A DNA stretch of 64,000 nucleotides from Tistrella mobilis. GTDB lineage: Bacteria; Pseudomonadota; Alphaproteobacteria; Tistrellales; Tistrellaceae. The DNA is taken from positions 1 through 64,000 of the forward strand of contig NZ_JBBIAB010000009.1 of assembly GCF_039634785.1 (NCBI RefSeq), given 5' to 3'. The translations under genes and the position numbers were made by a program. The notes under the pieces were generated by a model, which ran no database searches, was not told the DNA's origin, and saw nothing but the letters and a program-made list of their open reading frames with translations. Positions 26,119 through 44,143 of the stretch are shown piece after piece (the first letter of the stretch is position 1; every line of letters begins with the position of its first letter).

Positions 26119-26400
26119 ATGCCGATCACGCCCGAGACCACCGTCACCCGCAATGACGATCTGATGATCGCCGAGATCGATGGCGAGGTGGTGCTGATGC
26201 ATGTCGACAAGGGCAATTATTACGGTCTGGACCAGATCGGCTCCGACATCTGGGAGCGGATGGCCGCTCCGGTTTCGGTGGCCGATCTTCATGCCGCGCT
26301 GGTCGCCGATTACGAGGGCGATGCCGAAGAGATCCGCGCCGATCTGATGGAGCTTCTGGAACGGATGGCCGAGCACGACCTGGTGCGCGTCGCCGCCTGA
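26119..26400 (+). CDS. PqqD-like small protein (RiPP recognition element type)
   Basis: A 93-residue protein with the PqqD pattern: beta-strand E-I-D-G-E-V-V-L-M, then GNYYGLDQIGSDIWERM and a helix-rich C-terminus (ADLHAALVADYEGDAEEIRADLMELLERM). PqqD and the lasso-peptide B1 proteins use this winged-helix fold to bind leader peptides of RiPP precursors. ATG 26119 has AGAGGA 7 bases upstream. A lasso-leader-like 55-residue peptide lies 1.2 kb downstream on the same strand, a plausible client. No RiPP cyclase, B2 protease or radical-SAM gene is in the window. Confidence 0.82.
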   Translation: MPITPETTVTRNDDLMIAEIDGEVVLMHVDKGNYYGLDQIGSDIWERMAAPVSVADLHAALVADYEGDAEEIRADLMELLERMAEHDLVRVAA

Positions 26401-26526
26401 TCCGCCATCGCCCGGCCCGCCGCCGGCGCAACTTCGCCTGGACGCGGACGACCGCTGCGTGGGATGGTTTGGGGGTGTAGCCATGATCTGTGGCTTCCCC
26501 CTCACCCCGTCGCCAGGCAGTGCCTC

Positions 26527-27108
26527 ATGTCCGAAACCACGCCCGCCCCCGATCTCAGTTTCGAGATGCCGTCGGAGCTTGCAACCCAAGGCTTCGCCGT
26601 CCGGCCGCGCACGCCCCAGGACACCGACTTCCTGCGTGAGCTGTACATCTCGTTCCGTTGGGCGGAACTCGAGGCCGCCGGCTGGCCCGAGGCCACGCGG
26701 CGCAGTTTCCTGGCCGACCAGTTCCGGCTGCAGGACAACCACTACACCACCCATTACACCACCACCGCCTTCCTGATCATCACGCAGAACGGCGCGCCGG
26801 TGGGGCGGCTGTATATCGACCGGGGCGGCGTGCACGAAATCCGGCTGGTGGATATCATCCTGGTGCCGATGCTCACCGGCCGGGGCATCGGCTCGGCCAT
26901 CATCCGGGTCCTGCTCGACGAAGCCGCGCGCACCGGCCGCTATGTCGGGCTGCATGTGGAAAGCTACAACCCGGCCCGGCGGCTGTATCAGCGGCTCGGC
27001 TTCGTCGATCGCCGACTTGAAGGCCCCTATTTCTATATGAGCTGGGGAGATTTTCCTGCCGATGCCGGCACGGTCGCCGGAGATGGGGCTCAGCTGAACA
27101 CGATCTGA
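26527..27108 (+). CDS. GNAT family acetyltransferase
   Basis: A 193-residue acetyltransferase. The acetyl-CoA loop is VPMLTGRGIGSAIIRVLLDEA near residues 115-135 (R/Q-G-x-G-x-A/S pattern) followed by HVESYNPARRLYQRLGF. GNATs of this type occur beside microcystin-dependent-protein (phage tail collar) genes, as here. The acceptor could be a protein or the peptide nearby; this is not shown. It overlaps the convergent DUF6916-like gene by 19 bases. Confidence 0.82.
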   Translation: MSETTPAPDLSFEMPSELATQGFAVRPRTPQDTDFLRELYISFRWAELEAAGWPEATRRSFLADQFRLQDNHYTTHYTTTAFLIITQNGAPVGRLYIDRGGVHEIRLVDIILVPMLTGRGIGSAIIRVLLDEAARTGRYVGLHVESYNPARRLYQRLGFVDRRLEGPYFYMSWGDFPADAGTVAGDGAQLNTI

Positions 27109-27401
27109 TACCGCACCGTCCCGTCGGGATTGCGGCCGATCGGCACCATGAACAGGCGCATCTGGCCCATGGTTTCGTGCGACAGCAGAACCTCCTGGCC
27201 GTCGATGGCGATATCCGTCCGGCTACCGTCCAGAAACAGGCTGAACCGTTCCCGATCGAAGGTCGGCAATGGAGGCTTGCGGGTCACGCTTCTGAGCGTG
27301 AGCCGTTCGATCAGGACCCCCGCTTCGCCCGAGGGGATATCGAAGGGGTGGGCGGCGGCGGCTTCGAATTCGTCGGCGGTGAGATCCAGCGGGGAGCGCA
27401 T
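27090..27401 (-). CDS. DUF6916-like small protein linked to tail-collar genes
   Basis: A 103-residue protein with an N-terminal LTADEFEAAAAHPF and a C-terminal ETMGQMRLFMVPIGRNPDG followed by RYQIVF. It looks like the DUF6916 family, small beta-rich proteins usually coded near tail-collar/MdpB genes. ATG 27401 with AAGGG upstream is chosen; an upstream ATG 27431 is possible. No enzyme motif is visible. It may be a structural or chaperone partner of the collar proteins; this is inference from context. Confidence 0.6.
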   Translation of the reverse strand: MRSPLDLTADEFEAAAAHPFDIPSGEAGVLIERLTLRSVTRKPPLPTFDRERFSLFLDGSRTDIAIDGQEVLLSHETMGQMRLFMVPIGRNPDGTVRYQIVFS

Positions 27402-27572
27402 AATCGACCCTTCATGTGTGGGTTTGGGCATTGTATTGCTCGCAGCATCAGTGATATTCTACCCAGAGAACATGCTATGATCGTTGGGATGTTGACGCTG
27501 GTGTGAATGCTACTGAATGGTTGTTGTGCACAGCGTTGCGCGGAAAATGAACACTATCAAACAGGGTGTAGT

Positions 27573-27740
27573 ATGAGCAACAAAACTGCAGAAATGCGTC
27601 GCTCCGCAGAGAAAGTTTCCAAGGGGAAGGGCCTTCGGAGGCATTGGCAGGCACCAATTTTGACTGTTCGGACAGCAAATGCTCTCACCTTGGGCGCAGA
27701 TACCTATCTAAGCGACGGCGTTGATGGTGTTGTGTCCTAA
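27573..27740 (+). CDS. Lasso-leader-like RiPP precursor peptide candidate (55 residues)
   Basis: A 55-residue peptide from ATG 27573, preceded by AGGGTG. It has a basic N-terminus (MRRSAEKVSKGKG), then a leader motif HWQAPILTV with W25, P28 and L30, a Thr (T39) exactly 11 residues after the Pro, and a 15-residue tail beginning G41 with D48 as the eighth residue. This matches the plan of lasso-peptide precursors: a Y/W-x-x-P-x-L leader, Thr two residues before the core, a core starting in Gly, and an Asp/Glu at position 7-9 that could close a ring. The tail otherwise is rich in G, D, V and S. The local DNA is AT-richer than the genome. There is no cyclase in the window, so it is an orphan candidate. 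Confidence 0.62.
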   Translation: MSNKTAEMRRSAEKVSKGKGLRRHWQAPILTVRTANALTLGADTYLSDGVDGVVS

Positions 27741-28187
27741 TCAAGATTGTGCATTTTGAGTGCATAGGCACGGTATGTCGTCAATGTGGTCGAGTAAGTG
27801 GGCCTCATGGTACGCAATGCGGATGTATTTCGTGAGCGCCGTGCCTAGTGCTACTTTGTAGGCATGTAAGTTGGCCTTGTTCTGTGTGTTTTTGAAGAGG
27901 TGATGGGACCACAATCGGGACGATGTGACATAAATGAATGCAATTTGTTTTTCGGATTATTTTTCAATCCAAGATTAATTGGCCCGAAAATGATAATATC
28001 AGAGCTATTTATTTTTTATGATATGTGAGTATGTGTGTTTTTCGTTTGCCTCTTTTGGTTGAGTGTTTTCTAATTTAGCGGCGTGGCCAGCCGTGACGTG
28101 GGAAGTTGTCGCTCTGCTTTTTATCCGTTCCGCGCACGGCTGTGCTTGACCCGTAGCCCACAATAATCCCCGTGAGGACGACGCACG
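27741..28187 (+). other. AT-rich spacer between peptide and collar genes
   Basis: 447 bases with no credible gene. The right half (about 27930-28060) is markedly AT-rich, with -10-like GATAAT/TAATAT at 27992-27999 but no convincing -35. A promoter for the three collar genes is likely here. The composition contrasts with the GC-rich genome and supports horizontal acquisition. Confidence 0.5.
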
Positions 28188-28745
28188 ATGGACCCCTTCA
28201 TTGGAGAGATTCGCATCTTTCCGTTCGGTTTTGCGCCGAGCGGATGGATGCCTTGCGAAGGCCAGGAACTGCAGGTGAGCCAGAATCAGGCTCTTGCTGC
28301 CCTGCTCGGAAATACCTATGGCGGAAACTGGCCGACCACTTTTAAGCTCCCCGATCTGCGTGGCCGGGCGCCCTTGGGCCAGGGCCAGCACAATGGCTTT
28401 AGCTATAGCATGGGCAATGCGATTGGCAGCCAGACGGTGACCCTTACGGTCGGACAGCTGCCGCAGCACACGCACACAATGTCCGCCCTTAGTACCGAGG
28501 GAAACCTGGCGGTGCCGACGGCGTCCAGCGGTATTACAGCAATGCTTGCAAATACTGGAGATAATAGCTCTCAGCCGAACGGTCCGGAGGTTTATATTAC
28601 TCCGCCGCCGACCGCGACTCTGACGCCACTTCGTCCGGAGACGGTGACGTCGACTGGGGGCGGTCAGGCCCATCCGAACGAGCAGCCCAGTCTTGCGGTG
28701 TATTACTGCATCGCGACAACCGGGCTGTGGCCGCCGCGGTCCTGA
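28188..28745 (+). CDS. Phage tail collar/microcystin-dependent protein family, copy 1
   Basis: A 185-residue protein of the tail-collar (MdpB-like) family. The N-terminal half has GEIRIFPFGFAPSGWMPCEG, then QALAALLGNTYGGNW and FKLPDLRGRAPLGQG, the hallmark collar domain. The middle has QTVTLTVGQLPQHTHTM, and the C-terminus ends with HPNEQPSLAVYYCIA and a hydrophobic terminal strand. Proteins of this type are found in phage tail fibres and as stand-alone secreted or surface proteins. Start ATG 28188 with GAGGA upstream. First of three tandem paralogues; no other phage genes are nearby. Confidence 0.88.
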   Translation: MDPFIGEIRIFPFGFAPSGWMPCEGQELQVSQNQALAALLGNTYGGNWPTTFKLPDLRGRAPLGQGQHNGFSYSMGNAIGSQTVTLTVGQLPQHTHTMSALSTEGNLAVPTASSGITAMLANTGDNSSQPNGPEVYITPPPTATLTPLRPETVTSTGGGQAHPNEQPSLAVYYCIATTGLWPPRS

Positions 28746-28835
28746 ACCCGACCATCATCTCTGCGGCCGGTCATGCAATCACCGGATCGGTGTGCACAAC
28801 CGGTTGATAGATCTTCATCGACAGGATGAGACATC

Positions 28836-29387
28836 ATGGACGGATTTCTGGGCGAAATCAGGATGTTCGCCGGCAATTACGCGCCGGAAGACTGGGCAAT
28901 CTGCAACGGCGCGCTGCTGCCCATCGTGGGCAATGAGGCACTGTACTCGCTGCTCGGTGTCAAATACGGCGGCGATGCGGTGACCAATTTTGCGCTGCCG
29001 GATCTGCGCGGCCGGATGGCGGTACATGCCGGGCAGGGGCCGGGTATGCCGTTTCCGCATCCGCTGGCGCAGCAATTCGGCAGCGAGACGGTGACGCTGA
29101 CCGAGGCGATGATGCCGGCGCACAGCCATAGCTGGCAGACCTATCCGCAGCCCTCGACCACCGAGGCGCCCCAGGCGCAGGTGCTGGGCACCATCGTCAA
29201 GAGCGCGACAAGACCGACATTCGACGGTCTCTATCGGAGCACGCTTCCGACTTCGACCAATGTCGGGCCAATGGCGTCTCAAATGATCGGATCGACCGGC
29301 CTCGGCGGCGCGCATGCCAATATCATGCCGGGGCTGGTCATCAGCTTCATCATCGCCCTCAAGGGCAATTACCCGACCCGTCCGTGA
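28836..29387 (+). CDS. Phage tail collar/microcystin-dependent protein family, copy 2
   Basis: A 183-residue paralogue of the preceding gene: GEIRMFAGNYAPEDWAICNG, ALYSLLGVKYGGD, FALPDLRGRMAVHAGQG and ETVTLTEAMMPAHSHSW, then a variable centre and a conserved C-terminal HANIMPGLVISFIIALKGN. It lies 90 bases after copy 1 and 13 bases before copy 3. The variable middle regions, which differ between the copies, are where binding specificity would be expected if these are surface ligand-binding proteins. Confidence 0.88.
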   Translation: MDGFLGEIRMFAGNYAPEDWAICNGALLPIVGNEALYSLLGVKYGGDAVTNFALPDLRGRMAVHAGQGPGMPFPHPLAQQFGSETVTLTEAMMPAHSHSWQTYPQPSTTEAPQAQVLGTIVKSATRPTFDGLYRSTLPTSTNVGPMASQMIGSTGLGGAHANIMPGLVISFIIALKGNYPTRP

Positions 29388-29400
29388 GGAGAAGGCGATC

Positions 29401-29961
29401 ATGGCAGATCCGTTCTACGGTGAAATCCGCGCATTCACGTTCGCCTTCTCGCCGGCCAACTGGGCCTACTGTGCCGGGCAGGAGGTCCAGATCCAGCAGT
29501 ATCAGGCCCTGGCGGCGGTGATCGGCACGATGTATGGCGGCAATCTCAGCCAGAACAAGTTCAACCTGCCCAATCTGCAGGGCCAGGTGGCGGTCGGGTC
29601 CGGAACCGGTGTGGGGTTGACGCCGCGCACCGTCGCGCAGCAGATCGGGACCGAGACCGTGACACTGGCGATCTCGCAGATCCCGCCGCATACCCACACG
29701 GCGCAGGCGCTCAATGAAGCGGTTCTTACGGATGCGACGTTGACGCCGTCGAGTACTACCATGCTTGGTCGGGCAGTGGGTGCAGCTGCCTACGCCCTTT
29801 ATCCGAACCCGCTGCCGTCGCCGTCGCCGGTGGTGATGATGGATGTGCGCAGCCTGACCCAGATCGGCAACAATCAGGCACATGAGAACCGGCAGCCGGC
29901 GCTGACGCTGAATTTCTGCATCTGTGTGTATGACGGGTACTTCCCGGTCCGGCCGTCCTGA
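29401..29961 (+). CDS. Phage tail collar/microcystin-dependent protein family, copy 3
   Basis: A 186-residue third paralogue: GEIRAFTFAFSPANWAYCAG, ALAAVIGTMYGGN, FNLPNLQGQVAVGSGTG and ETVTLAISQIPPHTHTA, ending HENRQPALTLNFCICVYDG. It has the same domain plan as copies 1 and 2 with a diverged centre. ATG 29401 is immediately downstream of copy 2. The tandem array has no tail sheath, baseplate or integrase genes near it, so this is not a prophage remnant by content. Confidence 0.88.
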   Translation: MADPFYGEIRAFTFAFSPANWAYCAGQEVQIQQYQALAAVIGTMYGGNLSQNKFNLPNLQGQVAVGSGTGVGLTPRTVAQQIGTETVTLAISQIPPHTHTAQALNEAVLTDATLTPSSTTMLGRAVGAAAYALYPNPLPSPSPVVMMDVRSLTQIGNNQAHENRQPALTLNFCICVYDGYFPVRPS

Positions 29962-43102: not shown

Positions 43103-43783
43103 TCACCCAAGCCAGAGGGTGAAGTTGTAGCGATACCAGTCTGCCGGAACATCGTGCAGCGGATCGACGCCATGCGACTGATCGGCATCGACGTCGAAAA
43201 GGATCGCTCGATTGGGCAAAGGGTCGATGACCCGTTCACCCCGGGCGGTGAAGACGCGAAAGGTGCCCCCCATGCCGGGGTGCCAGTCATCGTTGAAATA
43301 AAGCAGCAGGCAGAGCCTGCGTTCCGCGGCGCGGTCGTCATGCCGGGTCGAAAAATCATCCCGGCCCATGCGCCGGACCAACAGATCGGCGATCGCCCCG
43401 GTGTCGATGCCGGTCAGTGTGCCAAGCCAGTGCCTGAAGTCGGCGCGGCCGGCCAGAAGTTTGAAACCCACGATGGCGAGCATGCCGGGTGCCAGCTCCC
43501 GCCCCGTCTTCGGTGCCCGATAGTTTCCGTGGCGGAACAGGCGCTGATCCGCCGGGGTGGCATTGAACCGTTCGGCTGATGTCAGTTCGCCGCTGGCGTC
43601 GACCCCATAATGGGTCGTCCAGTCGCAATCCGTCCGCAGGCCCTGGGAGATCCGTGCATAGCGCTCTGGCAGCAGGACATCGTCCAGTATCAGCATGCGG
43701 ACCGGATCCGCTTCGAAATCGGCGCGCAGCTGCGATGTCCGCCTGTCGTCCAGGTAGATGGGATTGATCCACTTTTCCAACAT
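43103..43783 (-). CDS. 2-oxoglutarate/Fe(II)-dependent oxygenase, next to RiPP-like peptide
   Basis: A 226-residue oxygenase of the 2OG-Fe(II) (prolyl-4-hydroxylase-like) superfamily. The iron site is visible as H148-x-D150 (STRHDD) and H204 (QSHGVD), with the 2-oxoglutarate-binding arginine at R218 (DWYRYNFTLW). The double-stranded beta-helix core runs about 90-226; the N-terminal ~35 residues (MLEKWINPIYLDD) resemble the substrate-binding lobe of P4H enzymes. A 55-residue peptide is divergently coded 192 bases away, suggesting peptide hydroxylation; this is inference from context. AAGGAGA lies about 13 bases before ATG 43783. Confidence 0.82.
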   Translation of the reverse strand: MLEKWINPIYLDDRRTSQLRADFEADPVRMLILDDVLLPERYARISQGLRTDCDWTTHYGVDASGELTSAERFNATPADQRLFRHGNYRAPKTGRELAPGMLAIVGFKLLAGRADFRHWLGTLTGIDTGAIADLLVRRMGRDDFSTRHDDRAAERRLCLLLYFNDDWHPGMGGTFRVFTARGERVIDPLPNRAILFDVDADQSHGVDPLHDVPADWYRYNFTLWLG

Positions 43784-43975
43784 CGCTCGGGATAATTCTC
43801 CTTTGAGGTGATTCTCATCGGGGCGTCGAACAATAACGGCACAGATTGCAATCTGATGCCCGCCCTGTCGGGAAATATGCGCCCTCCGGGGTCCCTCGAT
43901 ACTCATCCATAGGCTATGCTTTACAGAACGAAGGCGTAAGAGGCGTCTTTCAGTATCGTTGAGAGGAAACAGGAC

Positions 43976-44143
43976 ATGAGCACGAGCATTGACCAGATCG
44001 GCATGCAGGGCGAGGCGACTGCCGACGTGACGAGGGATGCCGTGAAGGGGGTGTGGTCCGCACCACAATTGCAGTGCGTGGAGCTCGACGTGGTCACCCG
44101 GGCGCAGGCCGGTGCCAACCCCGACGGGGTCACCGTCTCCTGA
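43976..44143 (+). CDS. Lasso-leader-like peptide 2 (55 residues), next to 2OG oxygenase
   Basis: A 55-residue peptide from ATG 43976, preceded by AGGAAACAGGA. It has W27, A29, P30, L32 (VWSAPQLQ) and T41, again exactly 11 residues after the Pro, the same spacing as the peptide at 27573. The tail after T41-R42 is A-Q-A-G-A-N-P-D-G-V-T-V-S, with the D-G-V ending shared with the first peptide. The N-terminus is acidic rather than basic. Both have exactly 55 codons. The divergent neighbour is a 2OG oxygenase. No lasso enzymes are near, so it may be an unmodified signalling or export-tagged peptide, or a client of distant enzymes. Confidence 0.55.
   Translation: MSTSIDQIGMQGEATADVTRDAVKGVWSAPQLQCVELDVVTRAQAGANPDGVTVS

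Follow-up and report, generated by a model that had tools for sequence, protein, structure and literature searches.

We describe a gene pair of Tistrella mobilis, a 55-residue peptide and a divergently transcribed 2OG-Fe(II) oxygenase, which probably represents a satellite lasso-type precursor and its private hydroxylase, matured in trans. The pair lies in a stretch of 64,000 nucleotides, referred to here as the window. This reading is suggested by the joint loss of both genes in a sister species, where a scar remains, by a family-wide precursor motif, by family members located beside lasso genes, by a homologue of the oxygenase in a lasso cluster of Azospirillum oryzae, and by pairs of JmjC_2 proteins with related precursors. 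Against it stand the lack of local B1, B2 and cyclase genes, a core of minimal length that begins with Ala, the dispensability of the pair, and the rarity of the oxygenase family.

The peptide gene (43976..44143, forward strand) opens with an ATG codon downstream of a GAGAGGA-like ribosome site, and the oxygenase (43103..43783, reverse strand) comprises 226 residues that match PF13640 (E 1.3e-13; 52 bits against a cut-off of 27). A preliminary description of this DNA had reported that a 55-codon frame faces a 2OG-Fe(II) oxygenase with an intact HxD...H...R set across 192 bases. We observed exactly this arrangement, with the intergenic region spanning 43784..43975 and with the facial triad and 2OG-binding Arg present as H148-x-D150, H204 and R218. 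An in-frame oxygenase reading of 384 residues, extending to 44257, was rejected as unconserved; since the longer frame is not kept in T. mobilis KA081020-065, where the frame has 237 residues, the start at 43783 was taken as the right one. A hit to the cyclophane oxygenase YhhC (NF041706) was also dropped, scoring 16 of 150 bits, far under the cut-off, and an AlphaFold2 model of the oxygenase built from three sequences was set aside (pLDDT 36). The genes neighboring the oxygenase encode an SDR enzyme and an acyl-CoA dehydrogenase, with no evident relation to it.

The proposal of one leader family shared with a second peptide of the window (27573..27740, forward strand; core GADTYLSDGVDGVVS, with Gly1 and Asp8) was borne out: both have 55 codons and a W-x-A-P-x-L motif (W27SAPQL in the 43976 peptide, W25QAPIL in the 27573 peptide), and they also share the distances from Pro to Thr (11 residues) and from Thr to Asp (9 residues) as well as a C-terminal Ser. 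Two open reading frames in the window carry the full motif, where Markov-3 simulations gave an expected 0.017 per 64 kb. No family was assigned to the precursor peptides by Pfam and NCBIfam searches. An inventory based on profile searches, in which the training members of the model are included in the counts, gave 23 relatives at E<=1e-4 in the genome of the window, 21 in T. mobilis KA081020-065 and 17 in the sister species. Their shared layout consists of W-x-x-P-x-L, 7-8 residues, Thr, any residue, seven residues, Asp or Glu, most often followed by Gly, and then a short tail that ends in Ser.

This layout may be read as that of a lasso precursor, with an RRE recognition motif, Thr at position -2 and a putative ring acceptor at core position 8. 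In the 43976 peptide, the predicted leader covers residues 1-42 (43976..44101, forward strand), and the Y/WxxP criterion for lasso leaders corresponds to W27-S-A-P30, within the predicted PqqD/RRE recognition motif W27-S-A-P30-Q-L32 (44054..44071, forward strand), whose W, P and L are at least 90% conserved in alignment A2. W/YxxP is a motif described for recognition of lasso precursors and by PqqD (PMC12710340). According to the family alignment, the leader ends in T41-R42, which places T41 at the penultimate position and R42 at -1 of the predicted cleavage site, in a register that is the same family-wide; a penultimate leader Thr is the rule given for lasso precursors in PMC10368454. The predicted core AQAGANPDGVTVS (44102..44140, forward strand) has D50 (44123-44125) as its position 8, within the 7-9 range expected of an acidic ring residue. 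Asp or Glu occupied the ring position in 43 of 43 frames selected by regular expression, a count in which the feature itself served for selection; in alignment A2, the corresponding D36 is at least 90% conserved. The core ends in Ser, the C-terminal residue on which lasso kinases are known to act (PMC9266682), and its 13 residues equal the known lasso minimum, that of huascopeptin (13 aa; PMC12427821). It starts with Ala, and many other satellite cores likewise start without Gly. The pair had been described as belonging to no recognizable class, an assessment that does not hold given the WxxPxL motif, Thr at -2, Asp8 and C-terminal Ser. No B1, B2 or cyclase (C) gene, which are expected to adjoin a lasso precursor, was found near 43976; therefore, the locus was filed as lasso-type and acting in trans, and not as a complete lasso cluster.

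Both genes are kept in T. mobilis KA081020-065, with 97% identity for the oxygenase and 80% amino acid identity for the peptide. As the preliminary description had anticipated, the peptide frame is conserved: it is 88% identical at the nucleotide level with no indels in 165 nt, whereas the 192-bp spacer is 77% identical with 5 gap columns. Between the two strains, dN/dS was 0.40 for the leader, approximately 1.2 for the core and 0.09 for the oxygenase, all from small counts and, for the core, from few sites. Judged from these alignments, the pattern is that of RiPP precursors, in which the leader is constrained and the core varies, and the oxygenase is under strong purifying selection. In the sister species, the flanks align up to window position 43150 and again from 44247, with few bases between; the alignment shows a remnant of approximately 45 bases from the 3' end of the oxygenase, frameshifted and decaying faster. 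Because the flanks match and this scar remains, peptide and oxygenase are considered ancestral and jointly lost in a single deletion of about 1.1 kb, and this loss also marks the pair as dispensable. In a scan of a collection of genome contigs, the oxygenase matched T. mobilis only, and no close orthologues were found elsewhere in the collection.

The 27573 precursor lies in a locus with a PqqD-family protein, possibly a B1/RRE protein (26119..26400, forward strand; PF05402, E 1e-17), which scored 69.8 bits against NF033536 (lasso_PqqD_Bac), under the cut-off of 80. The syntenic loci of the other two Tistrella genomes hold different precursors: within this conserved locus (window 26119-29961; L229, L230) the 27573 precursor is swapped for one with core GNFYVTNTDGDYSNS in T. 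mobilis KA081020-065 and one with core GGGAPSDEVPEYLS in the sister species. Lasso-type precursors in Tistrella and Azospirillum also repeatedly have collar-domain ("tail fiber") proteins beside them in sets of three (window 28188-29961; L080 10007-11658; L231 7296-8985; L234 13119-14815).

Elsewhere in the genome, family members occur directly with lasso-type genes at four loci (C6:108-128k, C17, C6:359k and C13). The first of these contains HPrK-like, sulfotransferase, PqqD and cyclase genes, and C13 contains PqqD, a cyclase, a TP_methylase, two PF13759 oxygenases and three precursors. The best NCBIfam match of the C13 cyclase is the lasso cyclase model NF033535, with 251 bits where the cut-off is 525. 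The TP_methylase, which stands in this locus with PqqD, cyclase and precursors (L079 8609-9661), belongs to a family resembling borosin methyltransferases. Each Tistrella genome yielded a single PF13471 gene; the one in the genome of the window scores 73.6 bits on the lasso B2 model, whose cut-off is 33, and lies on C29 between leuA and a histidine kinase, distant from all precursors. Several members adjoining lasso cyclase relatives have Gly1, and a further genome, G082, has a member (core NLTAANSDATTVS) within a complete cluster with an ABC exporter, B2, PqqD, HPrK, sulfotransferase and cyclase. The plasmid pTM1 carries a tandem array of 5-6 diverging precursors followed by a GDSL esterase and an MBOAT acyltransferase (L006 8287-10292; L082 6972-8299); in PLSDB, the precursors of this array are annotated as hypothetical proteins only.

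Full-length homologues of the oxygenase are few. The one in Azospirillum oryzae KACC 14407 (32% identity over 100% of the length) lies in a cluster annotated with a PqqD chaperone, lasso B2, an asparagine synthetase-like cyclase and an ABC transporter, and a 58-residue precursor-like frame occurs approximately 5 kb from it, with imperfect Asp8 spacing (Asp7 if Thr is at -2). The same cluster holds three further oxygenases (PF13640, PF13759 and JmjC_2), three collar-domain proteins, a GNAT protein and a DUF6916 protein; collars, GNAT and DUF6916 are common to the 27573 locus, with 45-47% identity for the collars and 41% for GNAT. In genome G379, a lasso cluster contains a partial homologue whose frame is missing the distal His and the Arg; it was therefore taken to indicate family membership and nothing more. 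The precursor-like frame of that full cluster (L157 14220-14447) has a predicted core, GPSTFSSGQAAHVS, without Asp or Glu, and the usual ring is therefore impossible. The homologue in Sinorhizobium sojae has a non-lasso neighborhood with a B12-radical-SAM-like gene, and most of the distant PF13640 relatives recovered by profile matches have no such peptide nearby. Hence, the expectation that homologous oxygenase-peptide pairs would occur elsewhere stood for the closest full-length homologue, which shares a lasso cluster with a precursor-like frame, and failed for most distant relatives.

The notion of a 2OG oxygenase as a tailoring partner gained independent cases in the A. oryzae lasso cluster and in JmjC_2 and PF13759 pairs in Tistrella. 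In each of the three Tistrella genomes, a precursor of the family has a JmjC_2 protein next to it, and in Azospirillum sp. TSH100 a 40% identical JmjC_2 protein adjoins a Thr(-2)/Asp8 precursor inside a lasso cluster. PF13759 enzymes flank precursors at C13, and at C24 a distance of about 0.8 kb separates a PhyH gene from precursors; as a descriptive count, an Fe/2OG enzyme is nearby at 4 of approximately 13 precursor loci. By eye, the C-terminal extension of the JmjC_2 protein (L142 8630-9796) resembles a winged helix or RRE, and JmjC-RRE fusions have been reported (PMC12710340).

We propose that a PqqD-type B1 protein, whose gene lies elsewhere, would bind the WSAPQL motif of the 42-residue leader. 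The divergent oxygenase probably acts as a hydroxylase on the precursor in its linear form, the step that CanE performs on canucin with B1 assisting (PMC9266682). The single B2 leader peptidase would then cut after R42, and one of several Asn-synthetase-like cyclases would close an Ala1-Asp8 macrolactam, with B1, B2 and C all acting in trans. Hydroxylation and its site, trans processing, ring closure and threading are steps that we infer, and action of the enzyme on the 43976 peptide is suggested by genomic association only.

The precursor could be genuine and the oxygenase an unrelated neighbor acting on another substrate, such as a small molecule. The ordinary genes around the pair, the different cluster type in S. 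sojae and the distant PF13640 relatives that are not beside such peptides would fit this explanation; however, the divergent pairing is kept in two strains, one deletion took both genes, a homologue resides in a lasso cluster and Fe/2OG enzymes recur beside family precursors, and we regard it as quite unlikely. It is very improbable that the 43976 frame is spurious or a decaying, non-functional remnant of an old lasso cluster. A core dN/dS of about 1.2, the loss in the sister species and the absence of local machinery could be taken as signs of decay, but the 165 nt are free of indels between flanks that carry them, the dN/dS ratios are 0.40 for the leader and 0.09 for the oxygenase, and the remnant in the sister species, in which function was lost, displays what decay looks like, namely, a frameshift and faster divergence.

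A further explanation concerns the product, since PqqD-type recognition and an Asn-synthetase-like enzyme might yield an unthreaded macrolactam, an amide or other RiPP chemistry. The tails after Asp8 are very short (5-8 residues), the first core residue varies, the cyclase falls under the NCBIfam lasso cut-off and the G379 precursor has no acidic core residue. Set against these observations are a B2 protein above the lasso cut-off, the family-wide retention of Thr(-2) and Asp/Glu(8), and Gly1 in several members by lasso cyclase relatives; an unthreaded product is judged unlikely.

Of the known systems, canucin A (CanA/CanE, Streptomyces canus) likewise combines a short lasso precursor with an Fe/2OG enzyme, a likeness drawn from the description of CanE, with hydroxylation here predicted; the canucin genes form one cluster, whereas the Tistrella precursor and oxygenase stand alone. 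Paeninodin-type clusters (A B1 B2 C K D) share the split B1/B2, the invariant C-terminal Ser and, in related Tistrella loci, an HPrK-like kinase, but the 43976 locus has no kinase, its tailoring gene is an oxygenase and B2 is unlinked. Similar precursors lie inside lasso clusters in G082, in Azospirillum sp. TSH100 and, less cleanly, in A. oryzae. The plasmid clusters of A. oryzae KACC 14407 and TSH100, unstudied as far as we found, hold homologues of the oxygenase (A. oryzae), of the Tistrella JmjC_2 protein and of the collar and GNAT genes of the 27573 locus; there, all parts stand together with B2, cyclase and ABC exporter, whereas the Tistrella parts are dispersed. Prochlorosins are lanthipeptides in which one enzyme serves many dispersed precursors. 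The likeness lies in many precursors, few core enzymes and processing in trans, the last being predicted for Tistrella; they differ in RiPP class, and several Tistrella precursors also appear with a private tailoring enzyme. A literature search, with most subscription journals outside its reach, returned no paper on Tistrella lasso peptides or scattered lasso precursors. 2OG hydroxylation of a lasso precursor is already known from canucin and CanE, and it is the scattered layout that seems new.

Approximately 20 precursors are scattered in the genome and appear to share one central processing machinery. More tentatively, and with somewhat less than even confidence, the satellite pair at 43976 may be one unit of a dispersed lasso-type system of about 20 precursors at about 13 loci. 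Several of these precursors would have a tailoring enzyme of their own, drawn from four Fe/2OG families, sulfotransferases, a kinase, a glycosyltransferase and an acyltransferase, and all would rely in trans on one unlinked B2 and a handful of cyclases. Genome mining for lasso peptides seeks a precursor beside B and C genes; if unlinked satellite loci with their own modifying enzymes are real, such mining misses most products of these bacteria, and a natural combinatorial lasso platform would already exist. Several oxygenase families are added as candidate lasso tailoring enzymes, and it becomes testable whether one B2/cyclase set matures many different cores.
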